From Phycisphaerae bacterium (GTDB taxonomy: Bacteria; Planctomycetota; Phycisphaerae; UBA1845), in assembly GCA_021604825.1 (NCBI GenBank), contig BQJS01000045.1:1-25763 (forward strand): DNA of 25,763 bases. Direction: 5' to 3'. Position numbers and translations under genes: made by a program. Shown here piece by piece: positions 1 to 21,343 of this stretch (the stretch's first letter is position 1; every line of letters begins with the position of its first letter). The notes under the pieces were generated by a model. The model made no database searches, was not told the DNA's origin, and saw nothing but the letters and a program-made list of their open reading frames with translations.

Positions 1-2984
1 TCAGCGAAGAGTTGCAGATTCCATGCACCTCCGGACCGGACAGCGACGGTGACGGTGTGCTGGACAATTGCGACGTTTGTGCGGAAGGCGATGACACGGT
101 CGATACCGACGCCGACGGATACCCGGACGATTGCGACGTGTGCCCCGGATTCGACGACTTTTTTGACACCGACGACGACGGTGTGCCCGATGGATGCGAC
201 GTCTGTCCCGATGCCGACGACAATGTCGACGCCGATGCTGATGGCGTGCCAGACGATTGCGACCAGTGTCCCGGATTCGACGACGCGCTCGACGTGGATA
301 CTGATGGTATTATCGACGGCTGCGACAATTGCCCAGACGTTCCAAACAGCGACCAGTCGGACTTAGACTCGGATGGTATCGGTGACGCATGTGAAGATCC
401 GGCTGTCGTGACGATACCGCTCGATCTGGTTGAAGGTGACGCATACCGATTGTTCTTCATCACAGAGAGGCGAACGACTGCCGAGTCGGACGACATCGAA
501 TACTACAACGCGCTCGCCGAGGAAGACGCAGCCGCCACTCCTCGATTGAACGCACTTGGCGTTGGTTGGAAGGCTATGGTTTCGACTCCAGCGATCGATG
601 CCCGCGACAACAGTGGCACAAATTACCTGACCACGAATGGCGTACCGATATACCTCGTCGATGGTACGCGCCTGGTTGACGACTACGGGCACCTATGGCG
701 ACAGAGCGGTGCTTATCATGTCACGCCATCCGTTAGTTCCGGACTCAATTCGTCGGCAGGGAGAGTCTGGACGGGTACGGATCGCTACGGTGTTCAGTTG
801 GTCGCGTTGGGGGCATCCGGCGGTGAATCGTCGCAGGGGTGGCCGGGTTCAAAGGGGCCAAACGCCTGGGAATACGATGAAGCATCGCAATCGGTATTGC
901 GTCCTATCTATGTCATCAGCGATGTATTGTTTGTTCCCTGTGAGGGAGAGTTCGACGCCGATGGCGACGGGGTCGCCGACAACTGCGACGCCTGTCCGGG
1001 CGGTGACGATGCCTTCGACTCGGACGGAGACGGTACGCCCGACGATTGCGACGCATGCGACGGGTACGACGATTCTATTGATTGCGACACCAACGGCATT
1101 CCCGACGGTTGCGACATGGACCACCCCGGTCGATTCGACAACTTTACCGCAACAGACGCGCAACACTACACGACCAACGGCGATGCCGTTCTCGATCACG
1201 GCTACGTTCGATTGACCGAAGCCCTCAACGGGCAGCGCGGAACGGTCATCTTCGAACCCATTACGCCGGTTCGAGTTTCGGACTTCACCATCGACTTTGA
1301 TTTCTATATGGGCGGCGGTAACGGTGCCGACGGAATGGCGTTCGCCTTGATCGATGCGACACTCACCGGCCCGGACGACCTTTTCGGCGAAGGCGGCGGA
1401 AACCATCCATTAGTCGTGAGTCTGGATACCTATCGCGGCGGTGCTGCGAACGGAAACCACGCACTCCTTAAGAGTTACGGGGCGACGCTGGCGGATGTCC
1501 TCGTCGATCATCAGTTGGACGACGGTCGATGGCAGGGTGCGACGTTCACGTTCGCAAATGGCGCTGGCACGCTGGTCCTGTACGACGGCGATGGCTTCGC
1601 AACCACGATCTTTGAAGACGTAGCCGTACCCGGATTCGCGCCGATTCATGCCCGCTACGGATTCAGCGGACGCTCCGGCGGTGTGACCAACGAGCATCGT
1701 GTGGACAACGTCTACTTCGTAGCGACCAGCGTTTCCAACGACTGCAACACCAACGGAATTCAGGACACCTGCGAACCCGGTGGAAATGTAGACAGCGACG
1801 GTGACGGCGTGACGGACTTGTGTGACACCTGCCCGAATTCGCCGAATGTCTGGAACGTCTCGCAGGACACCTTCCACGCCACCATTCAAAACGCCATAGA
1901 CTCATCGGTGGCTGGCGACGAGATCGAGTTGGGCGCTTGCGTTTTTCATGAAACAGACATCGTTCTCAACAACAAGGACATTGTACTTCGCGGGCGGGGC
2001 ACCGATGCGACATTCGTCGATGGTGACGGTACCGTGGGTAGAATCCTAGACATTATTAACGGTGACGATAGCACGATCGAGGGCATCACGTTCCGCAACG
2101 GCATCGCGGGCATTAGCAACGGCGGCGCTTTGCTGGCTGTTCGCTCGAATTCGTCTCCTGTGATACGGAACTGCCGTTTCGAAGACAGTGAAAATGGCAA
2201 CGCGAATTACAGCGCGGTTTACCTCGTCGGTGGCTCGGCCAGCGAATTTCACGCATGTGTCTTTGCCGAAAATACCGGCGACGGTAACGCCTCCGTCGTG
2301 GGCCAAATCGGATCGACAACAACGTCTCGATTCGTCAACTCGCTATTTTACAACAACGGCGGCAGCGACAATGCTGTGCGGTGCCAGAGCAATGAGATGG
2401 AATTTGTGAACTGCACGTTTGCGAATGATCAAAACAATGAACTATTAACCGCGACAGCCGGCGGTTCGATCAGGACAATCGGTTGTACCTTCGACGCTAA
2501 CTCAGTGCCGAAGCCTCAAATTGAAACCACTCGATGCCTCTATCCCGGTGCGACCGGTGACAACATCGACGGCGTGCCGACATTTGTTGATGCGGCGAAT
2601 GGCGACTATCGACTTGCGGCTGGCTCGCTGGGTATTGATGCGGCCGACTACGACGCGTACGTCGCGGCTGGCGGGGATTCAGTTGATTTGAACGGCGACC
2701 CGCGTACGCACGACGATGTCGGCATTACCGATACGGGACTTGGAGCGCCAGCATACCTCGACATGGGTGCATATGAATTCCAAGGCACGACCCAGTGCGG
2801 TAGCGGAGGCGACTTTGGTTCTGACGGCGATACTGATCTGGCCGACTACTCCCGATTCGCGACTTGCATGTACGGCCCGCTCGGAGTCCTCGGGCCCAAC
2901 TGCGGATGCTTCGATCTGGACAGCGATGGCGACGTGGACGCGAAAGACTTCGCCGAATTCCAACTCAGCTTTACAGGTAACTGA
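1..2984 (+). CDS. Secreted TSP3-repeat / lectin-like / beta-helix protein with dockerin tail (5' end outside window)
   Basis: The frame is open from the first base with no signal peptide in view, so the start lies upstream; the TTG at 12 is just an internal leucine codon. Order of modules: six Asp-rich thrombospondin type 3-like calcium repeats of the form D-x-D-x-DG-x2-D-x-CD-x-CP (nt 40-390); a globular domain with YRLFFIT and DARDNSG motifs (nt 400-930); three more calcium repeats (nt 945-1110); a legume-lectin/ConA-like beta-sandwich containing GADGMAFALID (nt 1120-1730); another calcium repeat; a right-handed beta-helix with short repeated N-x-F/I-x-N strands (nt 1850-2600); and a C-terminal dockerin-like pair of EF loops (nt 2805-2980, DSDGDVDAKDFAEF). 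Such architecture is typical of exported planctomycete adhesins or polysaccharide-binding proteins. No catalytic motif was recognised. The domain names rest on motif reading. Confidence 0.92.
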   Translation, partial: SEELQIPCTSGPDSDGDGVLDNCDVCAEGDDTVDTDADGYPDDCDVCPGFDDFFDTDDDGVPDGCDVCPDADDNVDADADGVPDDCDQCPGFDDALDVDTDGIIDGCDNCPDVPNSDQSDLDSDGIGDACEDPAVVTIPLDLVEGDAYRLFFITERRTTAESDDIEYYNALAEEDAAATPRLNALGVGWKAMVSTPAIDARDNSGTNYLTTNGVPIYLVDGTRLVDDYGHLWRQSGAYHVTPSVSSGLNSSAGRVWTGTDRYGVQLVALGASGGESSQGWPGSKGPNAWEYDEASQSVLRPIYVISDVLFVPCEGEFDADGDGVADNCDACPGGDDAFDSDGDGTPDDCDACDGYDDSIDCDTNGIPDGCDMDHPGRFDNFTATDAQHYTTNGDAVLDHGYVRLTEALNGQRGTVIFEPITPVRVSDFTIDFDFYMGGGNGADGMAFALIDATLTGPDDLFGEGGGNHPLVVSLDTYRGGAANGNHALLKSYGATLADVLVDHQLDDGRWQGATFTFANGAGTLVLYDGDGFATTIFEDVAVPGFAPIHARYGFSGRSGGVTNEHRVDNVYFVATSVSNDCNTNGIQDTCEPGGNVDSDGDGVTDLCDTCPNSPNVWNVSQDTFHATIQNAIDSSVAGDEIELGACVFHETDIVLNNKDIVLRGRGTDATFVDGDGTVGRILDIINGDDSTIEGITFRNGIAGISNGGALLAVRSNSSPVIRNCRFEDSENGNANYSAVYLVGGSASEFHACVFAENTGDGNASVVGQIGSTTTSRFVNSLFYNNGGSDNAVRCQSNEMEFVNCTFANDQNNELLTATAGGSIRTIGCTFDANSVPKPQIETTRCLYPGATGDNIDGVPTFVDAANGDYRLAAGSLGIDAADYDAYVAAGGDSVDLNGDPRTHDDVGITDTGLGAPAYLDMGAYEFQGTTQCGSGGDFGSDGDTDLADYSRFATCMYGPLGVLGPNCGCFDLDSDGDVDAKDFAEFQLSFTGN

Positions 2985-3017
2985 TTCATCGCATGGAACA
3001 ACCCTGTCTTCGCAATG

Positions 3018-3052
3018 GATCGGACCGCGCCTGTTCCAGGTGCGGTTCGATC
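3018..3052 (+). terminator. Strong hairpin after the first gene, probable terminator
   Basis: A 16-bp stem (3018-3033 with 3037-3052, two G-U pairs) closes a 3-nt loop, 33 nt after the stop codon of the preceding gene. There is no clear T-run after it, so it may act as a U-less terminator or as a 3'-end stabiliser. Confidence 0.5.
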
Positions 3053-3719
3053 TCTGCTTCGAATTGGTCATACAAACCGTCGAACGGAAGCGTGATGAGC
3101 GGGAACGCGGCACCTTAAATTTAAAAGCATCAAACCGGACAGACGTGGTTAACAGACTAAATAGCACCCACGGTTGGGCCGGCGATTGTGTGGGTCAAGA
3201 GTGGGTCAGTCGTCACCTGATGACCGCTAGTTTTCAACTACTCAACCACCTGCCAGCAGCCTGCTACCCTCATTTTGACCCTCAAAACGCAGTATAAGCC
3301 CTTGTCTGGTAAGGGTTTATGACCGAGCTTCGTTTTCCCAAGCTGGACGTGGTGGACAGCGTCCCCTTGCCGGTTACTCTCATTATCTCCTGCGTCGAAA
3401 TCGGTCAGGCGATGTGGGATACCGGCCTTCAAATATGTGATCGACCGGGAAGCGGGTTGATCATCTGTGAAATTCGCTCATCTGGCTGAAGCCAGTTAAT
3501 GTCGCGTGCCACGTAAGCCACTACGATATAATTAGTTACATTACGAACCGTTCTTGTTTGAAATCGCGATACTGGTGTCCACCAGCAACACGAAAACAAA
3601 CATCCCGGGAAGTTGGCCTCCCCAAAGTTGCCGATTATGCTTGAGCTCTTTGTAGTTGCGCCTACCACCATCCGCCAACGGAACTGCGAGGGCTCAGGCC
3701 TGCGCGAGGCGCCGCGGGA
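3053..3719. other. Gene-poor, degenerate stretch
   Basis: No convincing gene is seen here. Short open frames on both strands lack ribosome binding sites and recognisable domains. A hairpin with an 8-bp stem and 7-nt loop lies at 3296-3318 (AAGCCCTT/AAGGGTTT). The stretch precedes transposase and integrase debris and is probably decayed mobile DNA (inference). Confidence 0.5.
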
Positions 3720-3890
3720 GGCTGCAAACCCAAACTTCTAAGCCCACATCGGAAACGAACGACGGTCTAGCCGGTGGTGGATCGATTAAAGGTTTCTGAG
3801 CGGCGGGCTTGCCGGGTTCTCCATCAGTCTCGCACAACGCAACATTACCCGCCGCAGGTGCGCGATGATGGAGAGCCTTTGACGCAACAG
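3720..3890 (+). pseudogene. IS3-family transposase OrfB N-terminal fragment, with in-frame stop
   Basis: In the frame of the GTG at 3774 the peptide contains VSERRACRVL, followed by Q-x-R-T-T-Q. This is a hallmark of the N-terminal region of IS3-family OrfB (known family motif VSERRACR..GQ.RSTQR). Translating upstream through the stop TAG at 3768 gives KLLSPHRKRTTV-stop-PVVDRL, which fits the usual segment just before that motif. The stop therefore looks like a point mutation in a longer OrfB. The DDE catalytic core is absent: homology ends near 3890, where integrase sequence begins. No terminal inverted repeats were identified. This is a dead insertion-sequence remnant. Confidence 0.7.
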
Positions 3891-4091
3891 ACCCAAGAGC
3901 ATTACACGCTCCATTCGTGTCGTCGATTCTTCAACTCATTTTGTATCAACCAGGGTGTTCCGGAACGCATTGTGCGCATCTGGATGGGTCACAGCGACCG
4001 GTCAATGACGGGAATCTATTACGGCCTCAGCGAAAATGAATCGATCCAGTTTATGCAAAAGATTTCTTTCGGTGAGATTGGAGCTGTTTGA
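3891..4091 (+). pseudogene. Tyrosine recombinase / phage integrase C-terminal catalytic fragment
   Basis: This segment is in frame with the transposase fragment before it. It carries the second half of a tyrosine-recombinase active site: H-x-x-R (His codon 3912, Arg 3921), then W-M-G-H (His codon 3990), then the likely nucleophile Tyr (codon 4017) exactly nine residues after that His, as in the family. The segment ends naturally at the TGA at 4089-4091. The first catalytic Arg and the whole N-terminal DNA-binding part are missing, so it cannot be an active recombinase by itself. It lies about 300 bp from the 3' end of tRNA-Ser, a common integration target, which suggests a former integrated element (inference). 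Confidence 0.75.
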
Positions 4092-4131
4092 AGAATTGCG
4101 GCAATCGTCCCCATGGATCAGGAGACGACTT

Positions 4132-4260
4132 ATGAAAATGCATTGGGTTTTGTTGACGACAGTGTTCACTTTGCCAGTGGCGTCAATTGGCGAGGGCGCT
4201 GGCAATTCGAGAACGACAATTCATTGCTGCCACAGGTTTGACGTCAGGTCGCCCATTTGG
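4132..4260 (+). pseudogene. Possible orphan gene start with signal peptide
   Basis: An ATG at 4132 follows a good ribosome binding site (AGGAGA, spacing about 7). It encodes a basic and then hydrophobic N-terminus, MKMHWVLLTTVFTLPVAS, like a signal peptide. The frame then runs with low-complexity, unrecognisable sequence straight through the antisense strand of the tRNA-Ser gene and stops only at 4692, which is not plausible for a real protein. I read it as the preserved 5' end of a gene whose body was replaced or lost. The end coordinate is arbitrary. Confidence 0.25.
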
Positions 4261-4341
4261 ACGAATCGTGTCAAGTTATTACCGGTTGAAGAGGATCGTT
4301 ACAGGGACATAACCGGGACAAGTCGATGCATCGAAAGCAAC

Positions 4342-4386
4342 GCGGGTTCGCAAAGTACACAACATAAAGTACTTACGCGAACCCGC
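4342..4386. terminator. Long hairpin downstream of tRNA-Ser
   Basis: The outer stem is 10 bp (4342-4351 GCGGGTTCGC with 4377-4386) and the inner stem 6 bp (AAGTAC 4353-4358 with GTACTT 4369-4374), closing a 10-nt loop. It begins 11 nt past the 3' end of the minus-strand tRNA-Ser. It has no U-run on the distal side, so it may be a processing or termination hairpin, or a relic of the mobile element next door. Confidence 0.4.
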
Positions 4387-4396
4387 AAAATTGAAA

Positions 4397-4488
<92 letters not shown>

Positions 4489-4556
4489 TCCGATGTCGTG
4501 ATGACACCGGTGCTGCATTCCAGATCGTCATGGCCTTACGGCGTGACGTGCTGCGA

Positions 4557-4584
4557 ATTGTATTCCTTAATTTCGTCTCGTCGA
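4557..4584 (-). promoter_or_regulatory. Possible promoter of tRNA-Ser
   Basis: On the minus strand a TACAAT -10 box (4557-4562) is preceded at 16 nt by TCGACG (4579-4584, four of six matches to the -35 consensus). It would give a leader of about 60 nt before the tRNA. Position and strand fit, but the -35 is weak. Confidence 0.35.
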
Positions 4585-4908
4585 GGGCGTTTGGAAGTGT
4601 TCGTGAGTGGTTTCTGGATATTTTCGGTCAGCTCGGGCGATAATCGTTACCCTCCGACGACCGAACTCGGCCGAGTTTCGAAGATTTGTTGATCATTCGA
4701 CGCCCGTATTTTTAACGGCTGAAATGGCCAAGGCGAGTCATGCGCTCGGACTGCATGTCAAAATGGGTAATTTGACGACGCCTCAATTCTATGATGCACC
4801 GCGTGACGATAGATGACGAGTATGGATTGGTCTGAAGATCCGCCGACTGAGACTGTACTGTTTTGCTACCAGATCCTGGTTTCAAGATACATATTCAAAT
4901 CAAGCTCA
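4585..4908. other. Intergenic stretch without recognisable gene
   Basis: Only short unsupported open frames are present. I see no domain, RNA fold or repeat I can name. Confidence 0.4.
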
Positions 4909-4938
4909 TTGACTTTGACCTGCACATATCGAGATAAT
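4909..4938 (+). promoter_or_regulatory. Sigma70-like promoter TTGACT-18-GATAAT
   Basis: TTGACT (4909-4914) and GATAAT (4933-4938) match the -35 and -10 consensus in five of six positions each, with an 18-nt spacer. Transcription would begin near 4945. It is the best promoter I can see in the window, and it points to the structured segment and terminator that follow. Confidence 0.55.
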
Positions 4939-4944
4939 CCAAGT

Positions 4945-5078
4945 CGGTGAATTAATTTGATCGCGATTCACCAAAGGGCGGGAAAGCGAAATTGAGTCGT
5001 TCGCAACGTTGGGTCGAAAGACGTTTGCGACTTGGGATTGAGGGAGATACGCGCAGGGTGCGCGTGTCTCTTTTTTTT
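4945..5078 (+). ncRNA. Candidate small RNA or terminated 5' leader
   Basis: The segment lies between the promoter at 4909-4938 and an intrinsic terminator ending at 5078, about 134 nt. It has no convincing ORF. It contains a GTC-GAAA-GAC hairpin with a GNRA-type tetraloop (5013-5022), flanked by imperfectly complementary arms (GTCG..CAACG near 4996-5009 and the reverse complement near 5021-5031). It could be a free sRNA or an attenuated leader of the large gene starting at 5299. I found no alternative pairing partner for the terminator stem, which favours the sRNA reading. No known RNA family was recognised. Confidence 0.4.
5044..5078 (+). terminator. Intrinsic (Rho-independent) terminator
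   Basis: The stem GAGATACGCGC/GCGCGTGTCTC (11 bp with one T-G pair) is followed by eight Ts (5071-5078). It is a textbook terminator on the plus strand with no protein gene directly upstream. Confidence 0.85.
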
Positions 5079-5298
5079 ATTTGTGCGCCGGTCGTTTTGA
5101 TCTCGCAGTGAATGTTGCACTTCAAGATCGCGACTGGAAATGAGGTTGTAGCGCTCTCGCGCTGCGCATTCATCAATCATCGGGCACTTGAAAACATCGG
5201 ACAGCTGAAAGACATCGGGATTGCAGGCCAAGGCCGTTGAATTTGCGATCCTTATGTTTGGAAATCGGACACGACAATTTTACTGCGAGGGACGAAGC

Positions 5299-8200
5299 AT
5301 GTTGAACTTCTGCACTCGGAATTTGGATTCAAATCAGAATCGTGCGCGCAGGGTCTTTGGGATCTGCGCAATAATGGCTTTTGCCATAGGATCAAATATC
5401 GCCAATGGCCAGATCGCCACCTCGCTCGTCAACGAAGGCGACGAAGTGGATTCGAATGGTTTTCCCGGCGACAACATCGGTACCATCAACAATGTCGCAG
5501 TCAATTCCATCGGTGGTTGGGCTGCGACGCTGAACGCGGGATCGCTCAGTCATATCTATGGGTCGATCGATGGCGTGTCACCGGCTGGTGTCATTTTTAC
5601 TGAGACAACCGAAGGGCCGTTGGTGCAGACCAGCATTGAGTCGCGCTTTGGAATCAGCGACTTCGGCGACGTTTGCTACAGCGCTTCAGGAAACGGCGGT
5701 CCGGATGGTGGATTTGATTCGGCGTGGGTCAATACGATTGGATTCGCTATCGAGGGTGCGGAAATCACGACTGGGCCGTTGGCCGGGTTGTTCTGGTCAT
5801 TCGCTTCGGCACCGACGATGACCGCCAACGGAATCGGACATTTTTCGGGCGGAACTCGGACAACTGTTGGCGGTGGTACGAGTGCCCGCGGAATTTGGGG
5901 CACGGATAGCGAAACGCCGATCATCTACACCGGTGACGAGCTGCCGGGTTTGCCTGCTCCGATTGACGCCGATAGCTCCATCGATTTCAGCTACAAGTTC
6001 TCACGATTTGGCAGCGCTTATATCCTCGACGGAATCATGGAGACGACCGGTACGGGGCTGCCGAGCGGTGCGGACCATGCCATGATCATGGACGGCGCAG
6101 GTCTGTTCCTTGATGGCCAGCTGGTGCAAGAGGGTAGCGTGGTGCCGGTTGCGATTGGTGGTGATGGTACCGAAACTTGGGCCACCGGATTTGATTTCTC
6201 CGGAATCAGTGACATGGGTGAGTACTTGTTTACAGGTGATACCTCCGGTCCAACGGCCACCGATGAATACCTGGTCTTAAATGGCGTGATTCACTTGCGC
6301 GAAGGCGACGCACTCGGCGCCGATACGATTAGCGGCGCAATTGAGGCGGCAGACATGAACAACAATGGCGACTGGGCTGTCGTGTGGCAGCTTAGCCCTG
6401 GCGGCACGTGCCTGATTTACAACGATCAAGTATTGCTCAGACTTGATGAGCAGGTGGACTTCAATGGTGACGGCGTCATTGATGGCGGCGACAACGGTGC
6501 GACGGTCGATGACTTCGAGGTGTTCAGCAACGCGATGGTGGTTGGTGACCGCGACGCGGCTGGAAACGTTTCGATTTATCTCCCACTGGATGTCGATCCT
6601 GACGGACCCGGAGGCACGACTTCGCTGGTTGAAGGGATTTATCAAATTTCCGTTGCTGAGCCTGCCGGTCCTTCGGGTGATTTGGAATTGGTAGTGGTAG
6701 ATGGCCCCGATCCGCAAGTCAATGTTCCAGGTGATGTGACTTATTCGGTCAAGGTTAGAAACAACAGCGATACTGCGATCACCGGTGTCACGGTGACCAG
6801 TACGCTGGATTCCGGTTTGACGTTTGACGCTGGTGCTTCGGATGCGATTGCCGTACACGCGGCGGGCACCGTGACTGCCAACCTCGGTACGATCGAAGCA
6901 AATGCGGTTCGGACGTACAAGTTCGTGACCAATGCGCCGGTGGCTGGCATCTACACGACCACATCGAGTGTGACGGGTGGGGCGGTTGATAGCGTTCCCG
7001 GAAACAACGACGTCACCAGCGAGACGGAAGTCGGCAAGAAAGCCGACGTATCGATTCTCATCACCGATGCCCCCGATCCATTGACGGTTCCTGGTGGGGC
7101 GATCACTTACACGTTGAATGTGTTGAACGATGGACCGTCGAGCGCCACCAACGTTGTGGTTACGATGAATCTCGACCCGACCACGACGTTCAATGCTGGC
7201 TTGTCTGATCCTGCGGCGAACCACGCGGCTGGTGTGGTCACGATCAATGTTGGCAGCCTCGCGAACGACGAGGCGGTTAGCTTTGACGTTGTCGTCAATG
7301 TCACGGTGCAAGGTGTCATTAACGTGGATGCCTCGATCACCGCCAATGAGTCCGACGAAGTACCGGCGAACAACGCAGACACCGAAGACACGCTCTTCCA
7401 ATTGACGACCGATCTGGTGATGACCATCTCTGATGCACCTGATCCGGTGCTGCCTGTGGGTGGGCAAATCACATATGCAGTTTCGGTTGACAACGACGGT
7501 CCCTCCGATGCGACTGGAGTAACTGCGAGTGTTACGCTTGACGATAGCGTGAGTGTGGTTTCGGTCGATGCGCCCGGTATTCACGATGGTTCACCGACAG
7601 GTGGCGTGGTTACTTATGCGATCGGTGCCGTCGGAACGGGCAGCAATGGGTTGAATGCAACGATCGTCGTCGACACCACCGAAACCGGTCGCCCGGTATG
7701 TACGGGTTCGACCAGCGGTGGCGGATTTGAAACCGATCCCGATCCGGTCAACAACAATGCATTGGTCAACACGCTGGTGATTGATGATGCAAGCGGGTTG
7801 GCCGTCGGTGTGTTCTCCAACTTCGCGAGCAGTCCGACTTCCGATGTGCCTGGTCTGCCTGGTGCCAAGTTTGGTACTGGAATCGATCGACCGTACCGAA
7901 GTCCAGATGGTAAGACCTGGGTGCTATCGGCGGACACCGATCTGGGGACTTCCGTCGACGAGGTCATCATTGTTGGAAACCACTGCACGAGTGAAGTGAA
8001 AATTCAGGAAGGTGTGACCACCCTTGATGCAAGCGATCAAGTTGGTCCGATCGAGCAGGACCTTTCAATCAACGACGCAGGTCAATTCGCCTTCGCAACC
8101 AATACGAACAATTCGACGAGCGCCGATGAAACGATCGTTCGTTCGGACGGTTCGACGCATGTGGTGATCGCACGGGAGGGCAACCTCTCACCGGCGACCG

Positions 8201-20576: not shown

Positions 20577-20663
20577 TGGGAACTGGAGGAATTGAACCTC
20601 TCGTCAGCCACCTCACTTCTTTTGCGACAACGGGATTACAATCCGCCGTGAGGAACAGTTCCC
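20577..20663 (-). tRNA. tRNA-like gene, Tyr(GTA)-type anticodon loop, abnormal
   Basis: The ends look like a tRNA: perfect acceptor stem GGGAACT/AGTTCCC, discriminator A, and a T-arm with loop TTCAATT. A loop TTGTAAT (anticodon GTA at 20637-20639) sits in a stem with one A-C mismatch. Between acceptor and anticodon stem there are only about 11 nt, so no normal D-arm with a GG pair can form. A long stretch of about 30 nt replaces the variable arm, and CCTCAC can pair with GTGAGG across the anticodon region. It could be a decayed tRNA-Tyr, a tRNA mimic or a rearranged gene. Confidence 0.4.
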
Positions 20664-20694
20664 ATATAGACTCGGTTTTGTTTCATATCATTCA

Positions 20695-20769
20695 TGCGGT
20701 GGGAGGGATTCGAACCCACACTGTCGAGAACCTCATTCTCGTGCCTCCTGCCAATTGGGCTACCACCGC
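20695..20769 (-). tRNA. tRNA with Leu(GAG) anticodon but short variable loop
   Basis: Acceptor GCGGTGG/CCACCGC is perfect with discriminator A. The D-arm is GCCC-AATTGGCAGGA-GGC. The anticodon stem CGAGA/TCTCG encloses ATGAGGT, giving anticodon GAG (20732-20734) with U33 in place. The variable loop is about 5 nt and the T-loop is TTCGAAT (T-stem with one T-T mismatch). Leucine tRNAs of bacteria normally have a long class II variable arm, which is absent here. CCA is not encoded. Anticodon assignment is firm; amino-acid identity is not. Confidence 0.8.
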
Positions 20770-20794
20770 GACGCTTCGTTGTCACCAGACGTAT

Positions 20795-20890
20795 TGGCCG
20801 AGGAGGGATTCGAACCCCCAACAACTCGATCCGGAATCGAGAACCACTCACTCCGATGCCGAGCGCCTCTTCCAATTGGGCTACTTGGCC
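20795..20890 (-). tRNA. tRNA-Arg(CCG)-type with 23-nt segment between D-arm and anticodon arm
   Basis: The body resembles its neighbours: acceptor GGCCAAG/CTCGGCC (one A-C mismatch), D-arm GCCC-AATTGGAAGA-GGC, perfect anticodon stem CTCGA/TCGAG around TTCCGGA (anticodon CCG, 20832-20834), a five-base variable loop, and T-loop TTCGAAT. Normally one base (position 26) joins the D-arm to the anticodon stem; here 23 nt (20842-20864) do so. That insert can form a weak hairpin (CTC-G-G...C-G-GAG). An alternative reading, with the insert as anticodon arm and the CCG arm as variable arm, is worse because U33 is lost. Confidence 0.65.
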
Positions 20891-20909
20891 TTTCAGCTTT
20901 TCAGTTCAA

Positions 20910-20983
20910 TCGCCGGGGAGGGATTTGAACCCTCAACTACTCGAGCTTAAATCGAGTGCCTCTGCCAGTTGGGCCACCCGGCG
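20910..20983 (-). tRNA. tRNA with Leu(TAA) anticodon but short variable loop
   Basis: Acceptor CGCCGGG/CCCGGCG is perfect, discriminator A. D-arm is GCCC-AACTGGCAGA-GGC. Anticodon stem CTCGA/TCGAG holds TTTAAGC, anticodon TAA (20947-20949). Variable loop is five bases. T-arm GAGGG-TTCAAAT-CCCTC is perfect. All stems are intact, so this looks functional, yet it lacks the long variable arm expected for leucine tRNA. Confidence 0.85.
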
Positions 20984-21015
20984 GATTCGTGCGCACACCT
21001 CGGGCGCACTTGGAT

Positions 21016-21089
21016 TGACCAGGGTGGGAGTCGAACCCACACAATCAGCGTTCTAAGCGCTGCGCCTCTGCCAATTGGGCTACCTGGCC
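21016..21089 (-). tRNA. tRNA with Leu(TAG) anticodon but short variable loop
   Basis: Acceptor GGCCAGG/CCTGGTC pairs fully (one G-U), discriminator A. D-arm is GCCC-AATTGGCAGA-GGC. Anticodon stem CAGCG/CGCTG holds CTTAGAA, anticodon TAG (21053-21055). The variable loop is five bases. T-arm GTGGG-TTCGACT-CCCAC is perfect. It is the first gene of the minus-strand array and shares its D-arm sequence with the next genes, which suggests duplication from one scaffold. Confidence 0.85.
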
Positions 21090-21212: not shown

Positions 21213-21246
21213 AAAAAAAGCCTCGGTAGTCGCAAGCACCACCGAG
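21213..21246 (-). terminator. Intrinsic terminator after the 19-codon ORF
   Basis: On the minus strand CTCGGT (21241-21246) pairs with ACCGAG (21222-21227) and is followed by GC and seven Ts (21213-21219). It ends transcripts of the small ORF and separates it from the tRNA array. Confidence 0.75.
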
Positions 21247-21283
21247 ACATCGCACCAATAAAACAACAATCATCGCGCGCAAT

Positions 21284-21343
21284 CTAAGCGGAGCCACCTC
21301 CGGGCAAGTTCAGCAGGTCATAATAGAGTGCGTTGCGAATCAT
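21284..21343 (-). CDS. 19-aa small ORF, possible small protein
   Basis: The peptide is MIRNALYYDLLNLPGGGSA. Its ATG follows a strong ribosome binding site (AGAGGAGA, spacing about 5), with a TATACT -10-like box at about 21361-21366 and a weak TTGCAT -35 at 16 nt. An intrinsic terminator follows about 40 bp after the stop. The complete set of promoter-like box, ribosome binding site, ORF and terminator in 150 bp suggests a genuine monocistronic small gene. No family was recognised. It could also be a leader peptide, but no protein gene lies downstream on this strand, only the tRNA array. Confidence 0.45.
   Translation of the reverse strand: MIRNALYYDLLNLPGGGSA

Follow-up and report, generated by a model that had tools for sequence, protein, structure and literature searches.

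How are three tRNA genes with leucine anticodons to be understood when their variable loops are only five bases long, and what is the cluster in which they lie? The window, i.e., the whole stretch of DNA analyzed, covers 25,763 nt of contig BQJS01000045.1 from a Phycisphaerae bacterium. An initial annotation, made from the sequence alone, had described in it three leucine-anticodon tRNAs with short variable loops, with U33 and A73. ARAGORN and Rfam both recovered these genes on the minus strand, as a tRNA-Leu(UAG) at 21016..21089 (TAG gene), a tRNA-Leu(UAA) at 20910..20983 (TAA gene) and a tRNA-Leu(GAG) at 20695..20769 (GAG gene). All three had U33 and A73, acceptor and T arms of 7/5 and no encoded CCA. 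In place of the long variable arm of class II tRNA-Leu they had 5-nt loops (ATTGT, TAGTT and ACAGT, respectively). The description of near-perfect cloverleaves was accurate for the TAG and TAA genes, which kept every stem and identity position and scored like other members of their family; it was too generous for the GAG gene, whose D loop holds one G too many and whose T stem contains one mismatch. The tRNA-Ser(GCT) at 4397..4488 (minus strand; ARAGORN and Rfam), used for comparison only, was long-armed and an ordinary class II tRNA, as reported.

The three genes first listed belonged to a larger cluster, with a fourth (20795..20890) and a fifth tRNA (20577..20663). All five genes were co-directional on the minus strand, with gaps of 32, 19, 25 and 31 nt. 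Upstream of the cluster, on the same strand, there was a possible ORF of 19 codons (MIRNALYYDLLNLPGGGSA, window 21284-21343), a candidate leader, and behind it an 11-bp hairpin resembling a terminator (window 21220-21248).

The fourth, tRNA-like gene was built on the class I Leu scaffold and was recognized by its fold, by Rfam (43.7 bits) and by R1, the class I Leu model introduced below (63.9 bits). It carried a 22-nt insert in the anticodon-arm region, the anticodon being readable as CCG or UCG, and the lowest-energy fold was one long hairpin. The gene is possibly degenerate. Two ideas about it were dropped. A 22-nt tandem duplication, whose units share 15 of 22 positions, was equaled or bettered by 182 of 2415 family-arm pairs, and an arginine identity deduced from A20 was abandoned because A20 is also found in a Leu-anticodon gene (L322).

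To score the two body types we used two covariance models, R1 for class I Leu (70 of 71 non-redundant sequences from 207, window excluded) and R2 for class II Leu (17 genes hand-picked from 30 non-redundant ones). The TAG, TAA and GAG genes scored 87.6, 85.4 and 78.1 bits with R1, 64.3, 62.0 and 49.5 bits with R2, and 59.5, 57.8 and 50.7 bits with the Rfam tRNA model. Because R1 exceeded R2 by 23–29 bits in all three, a better fold as class II, which the initial annotation had named as one outcome that would speak against its reading, did not materialize. The separation by R1 was imperfect: in 35 calibration loci the best non-Leu tRNAs were a Phe gene with 69.0 and a Lys gene with 66.8 bits, and some class I Leu genes reached only 65–67. 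A class II Leu ancestry of the class I genes was considered and not pressed, since the separation by R2 fails in some genomes. In Corynebacterium G003 and Nocardia G004, R2 gave class I Leu genes 62.4–68.5 bits and the next tRNA 52.6; in other genomes some class I Leu genes scored 56–60, near other tRNAs at 55–57.

A search for the same scaffold in other genomes and phages, as had been suggested, found many members. We searched viral contigs and GTDB genome contigs with the D-arm GTRGCCCAAYTGGCAGAGGC; each source held at least 120 matching stretches, of which 120 were taken (240 loci). D-arm invariance in this set is thus by construction; the anticodon, variable-loop length, U48 and A73 lay outside the search pattern. 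ARAGORN called 226 tRNAs with the family D-arm in the 240 loci, 225 with a Leu anticodon and one as Ala. By direct parsing, 241 of the 245 pattern matches could be dissected, and 219 of these were clean cloverleaves; the 22 others and the four undissected matches (26 in all) were dropped. A Leu anticodon was present in 219 of 219 (TAA 78, CAA 67, TAG 53, CAG 10, GAG 8 and AAG 3). Most variable loops (204) were 5 nt long and the other 15 had 6 nt; U48 was found in 215, A73 in 218 and an encoded CCA in 70. The sources were Actinomycetota, cyanobacteria, Planctomycetota, an Acidobacteria bin, a Myxococcales bin and viral contigs. The class I tRNA-Leu family can be defined by the D-arm GCCCAAYTGGCAG(R)GGC, a 5–6-nt variable loop, U48 and A73, all found in the window genes. 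The premise that bacterial leucine tRNAs are class II was too broad.

R1 matched in 71 of 392 Planctomycetota and 40 of 149 Actinomycetota genomes (E 1e-17 or better, 70.5 bits up), counts that are probably lower bounds because the filters were strict and the candidates per genome few. In the best 30 loci of the Planctomycetota search, a Leu-anticodon class I gene lay at the match in all 30. In another planctomycete, G075, four class I tRNA-Leu genes stood in a row (TAG, CAA, TAA and AAG; locus L315, 1500-1842). Within the open-access literature searched, as far as its texts were accessible, we found no description of a class I bacterial tRNA-Leu. An excerpt of PMC11541572 mentions a long loop in some Mycobacterium tuberculosis tRNAs, especially Leu-2, -3 and -5, which suggests, by implication and not by statement, that Leu-1 and -4 have none.

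Can such tRNAs be charged with leucine? In E. coli, leucylation depends on A73, A15-U48, G18G19 and A20a, and not on the long arm, according to the part of PMC9976931 available to us. The window genes kept A73, U8/A14, A15-U48, G18G19, A20a and the Leu anticodon (in our own numbering).

The gene content of other genomes points in the same direction. The Leu genes found in Corynebacterium G003 were class II CAG, TAG and GAG plus class I CAA and TAA, and in Nocardia G004 class II CAA, TAG, CAG and GAG plus class I TAA. In Planctomycetota G235 and G116, which had class II CAA, CAG, TAG and GAG, no TAA gene other than the class I one was found; the same held for G246, where no CAA gene was found either. 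These sole-reader genomes are drafts of unstated completeness, in each of which 150 of 618–2719 first-look candidates were scored. UUA means leucine in these bacteria, and therefore a sole UUA reader must carry leucine. In genomes in which no other UUA reader was found, the class I form has the look of a housekeeping gene. Of the seven Planctomycetota drafts checked for Leu genes, four (G038, G283, G075 and G001) had a class II TAA gene, with the class I genes as additions to the set. The class II kinds numbered five each in G038 and G283, were CAA, TAA, TAG and AAG in G075, and TAA, TAG, CAG and GAG in G001 outside its array. The class I genes were clustered in G283, G075 and G001, and stood beside two other ARAGORN calls in G038.

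From these sequence comparisons, the trio very probably represents class I tRNA-Leu, a widespread form (probability roughly 0.85). LeuRS would recognize A73 and the D-loop and core (U8-A14, A15-U48, G18G19 and A20a) and not the long arm, so that a body with a 5-nt loop could still be charged with leucine and read Leu codons. In some lineages the class I form seems to have taken the place of the class II UUA reader, and in the window it would be part of a short co-directional cluster of supplementary tRNAs, as in viral and planctomycete tRNA arrays. Among the three readings offered in the initial annotation, a LeuRS that accepts class I bodies is thus favored by the Leu anticodons, the sole readers and the identity set, codon reassignment is unlikely, and a mobile role is plausible. 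A class I Leu-anticodon tRNA of another lineage could in principle have changed its identity.

The fifth gene (20577..20663, minus strand) is a more novel object than the Leu trio. A BLAST search with the cluster matched 20577-20665 to an unannotated part of a tRNA array in Planctomycetota G001 (locus L197, 8 kb), with 85% identity across 82 nt. ARAGORN made 34 calls in this array, none of them Tyr and two with unreadable anticodons. The array spans 1101-7890 of its locus, surrounded by chromosomal-type genes, and many of its tRNAs have odd bodies. A DNA pattern scan of viral contigs returned ten stretches, seven with a copy of the tyrosine-type gene and three with ordinary tRNAs. With R3, a model made from six copies without the window, the window copy scored 92.9 bits (E 1.7e-25), and the best match outside the family in 153 loci 31.6 bits. 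R3 also matched in 14 of 52 new loci from a second pattern scan and in 12 of 392 Planctomycetota genomes.

The aligned set comprised 34 members, some of them near-duplicates, from 21 viral contigs, 12 genomes and the window. Its weakest members on R3 were in L315 (49 bits) and L452 (45 bits). The anticodon was GUA in 32 members and UCU and UAU in one each; A73 was present in 33, G1-C72 in 32 and an encoded CCA in 21. The window copy had the GUA (20637..20639, minus strand), G1-C72 and A73 of bacterial tRNA-Tyr, an anticodon loop TTGTAAT and an A-C mismatch closing the top of the anticodon stem. The UCU (Arg) and UAU (Ile) members, L379:8691-8774 and L452:1501-1584 (the latter a weak match), imply that the fold may not be limited to tyrosine.

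At default settings ARAGORN called none of the 34 members. At a lowered threshold it called two, in other folds: the window copy as Gly(ccc) and another as His(atg). Rfam gave only a sub-threshold tRNA-Sec match to the window copy, and a search of annotated phages found no close relative, only four weak partial matches. Since both programs miss this core topology, counts of tRNA genes in phages and planctomycetes may be too low. Up to 3 kb away, or to the end of the locus where that came first, 27 of the 34 members had at least three tRNA genes and 24 had a short Leu gene.

What replaces the D-arm in this gene? Between the acceptor and the anticodon stem there were ten nt in 32 of 34 members, and 9 and 5 nt in the other two; ten nt leave no room for a D-arm. 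Instead, the strand at the D position pairs with the variable region. In the window this helix P is formed by CCTCAC (20648..20653) and GTGAGG (20611..20616), and the variable-arm helix V by TGTC (20626..20629) and GACG (20602..20605), all on the minus strand. Over the 34 members, 96.8% of the cells of the 26 proposed pairs could pair, compared with 72.7% in shuffled and 43–54% in slid versions. Both-side changes occurred at 22 of the 26 pairs, and the covariation score was 0.675 versus 0.192. Helix P was 97.5% paired with both-side changes at six of six pairs; helix V, which lay outside the model, was 92.5% paired with such changes at two of four. Pair 37-67, for example, occurred as C-G 15, U-A 11 and G-C 5 times. 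Because helices P and V cross, a pseudoknot is implied.

As helix P was part of the model, we added an alignment-free test. A 6-of-6 complement (G-U allowed) of the D-position strand was found in the member's own variable region in 27 of 32 full-strand members, whereas 2000 permutations gave 4.4 on average and at most 11. Of the 26 members kept out of the training, 21 had such a complement, the permutations giving 4.0 on average and at most 10. The fold is well supported by covariation, and the gene may work as a tRNA-Tyr. It is apparently an undescribed tRNA-Tyr fold: the open-access literature searched, in the portions accessible, held no description of it.

The initial annotation had derived the trio from one scaffold by duplication followed by anticodon change. 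Outside the D-arm the three genes were 52–56% identical to each other and on average 54–56% identical to 196 distinct family members, random family pairs averaging 58%. Nearer relatives exist elsewhere, with overall identities of 80% for TAG (L026), 77% for TAA (L228) and 81% for GAG (L008). As the three resemble each other no more than they resemble random family members, local duplication is unsupported.

The window flanks look chromosomal. A PHROGs search with six window proteins gave two weak or generic matches and no clear phage function. A carboxypeptidase encoded in the window matched in 170 of 392 genomes of Planctomycetota, the phylum searched, the best-scoring match with 38% identity. 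Next to the arrays of relatives (20 proteins scanned) there were chromosomal-type genes in G001 and G384, a serine recombinase in G283 and a topoisomerase in G026. The family is common in viral contigs and phages, and the class I genes are extras in four of the seven Planctomycetota drafts, which makes a mobile or supplementary role plausible.

For the cluster as a whole, we give about even odds to a functional family of rewired tRNA-Tyr that phages and planctomycetes keep beside class I tRNA-Leu, charged by the host and resistant to its nucleases. The preferred reading already includes, as cluster partner of the Leu genes, a tyrosine-type tRNA whose D-arm is replaced by pairing of the D position with the variable region. 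In this further reading, the 3' strand of the D stem and the following GG would have moved to the variable region, and the D-position strand would pair across the anticodon arm and cross the variable-arm helix as a pseudoknot. Host synthetases would charge both tRNA types, and host tRNA nucleases would read them poorly. We infer that in this host the genes are expressed, that leucine and tyrosine are their amino acids, and that their role is supplementary and perhaps linked to mobility or anti-defence.

A related explanation, which we regard as possible but tentative, is that the genes are nuclease-resistant spare tRNAs that sustain translation when a defence system cleaves the host tRNAs. According to sections of PMC11555353 and PMC10264068, defences that target tRNAs can be evaded by the tRNAs of phages, and the depletion of tRNA-Tyr by retron-Eco7 is countered by a phage tRNA-Tyr. 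These reports make a supplementary, possibly anti-defence role attractive, and the frequency of the family in viral contigs and phages and the altered core of the tyrosine-type gene would fit. The PHROGs result for the six window proteins and the housekeeping appearance of the class I Leu form in other genomes argue against it.

Somewhat less probable is that the cluster is the decaying, disused remnant of a once larger tRNA array. It has five genes, compared with the 34 ARAGORN calls at the related locus L197. The insert in the fourth gene and the defects of the GAG gene make both imperfect, and part of the cluster may therefore be decaying; the A-C mismatch in the tyrosine-type copy and the missing CCA could be read likewise. 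However, the TAG and TAA genes keep all stems and identity positions and have family-like scores, the tyrosine-type gene scores 92.9 bits with R3, and the class I family often does not encode CCA anyway. Low-level reassignment of leucine codons, with the trio charged with another amino acid, is very improbable: although a class I body is unusual for Leu and altered-identity tRNAs such as allo-tRNAs are known (from the accessible part of a review), the genes keep every LeuRS identity position listed in the available text of PMC9976931, their family provides the only UUA reader found in several drafts, and their 7/5 acceptor and T arms differ from the 8/4 or 9/3 of allo-tRNAs.

The preferred reading, leucine tRNAs of class I form next to a rewired tyrosine-type tRNA, corrects the rule that bacterial leucine tRNAs need a long variable arm and points to genomes in which the short form seems to fill an essential role. 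With the tyrosine-type gene one could test directly how tRNA shape is read by synthetases, ribosomes and tRNA-cleaving defences.

With bacterial class II tRNA-Leu, the class I family shares the Leu anticodons, A73, A14, A15-U48 and, in the alignment, the D loop AAYTGGYAGA; it differs in its 5-nt variable loop and in a D stem GCC/GGC with C13. Bacterial class II tRNA-Tyr has a GUA anticodon, G1-C72, A73, a D-arm and a variable-arm helix. The tyrosine-type gene shares all of these except the D-arm, its D-position strand pairing with the variable region instead. Human mitochondrial tRNA-Leu(UUR), as presented in the consulted part of PMC9976931, is likewise charged by LeuRS without a long arm and has A73 and A14, whereas the class I family is bacterial, has a regular core and occurs in chromosomes, viral contigs and clusters. 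The tRNA array units of Morgado and Vicente (2018; PMC5966550, in excerpt) are, like our cluster, dense groups of supplementary tRNA genes that phages have too, but comprise 20 or more clustered genes, compared with five in the window. Finally, the tyrosine-type gene has the missing D-arm in common with the D-armless mitochondrial tRNAs treated in the accessible text of PMC7609411; in those tRNAs a connector takes its place, and here a covarying 6-bp helix that forms a pseudoknot.
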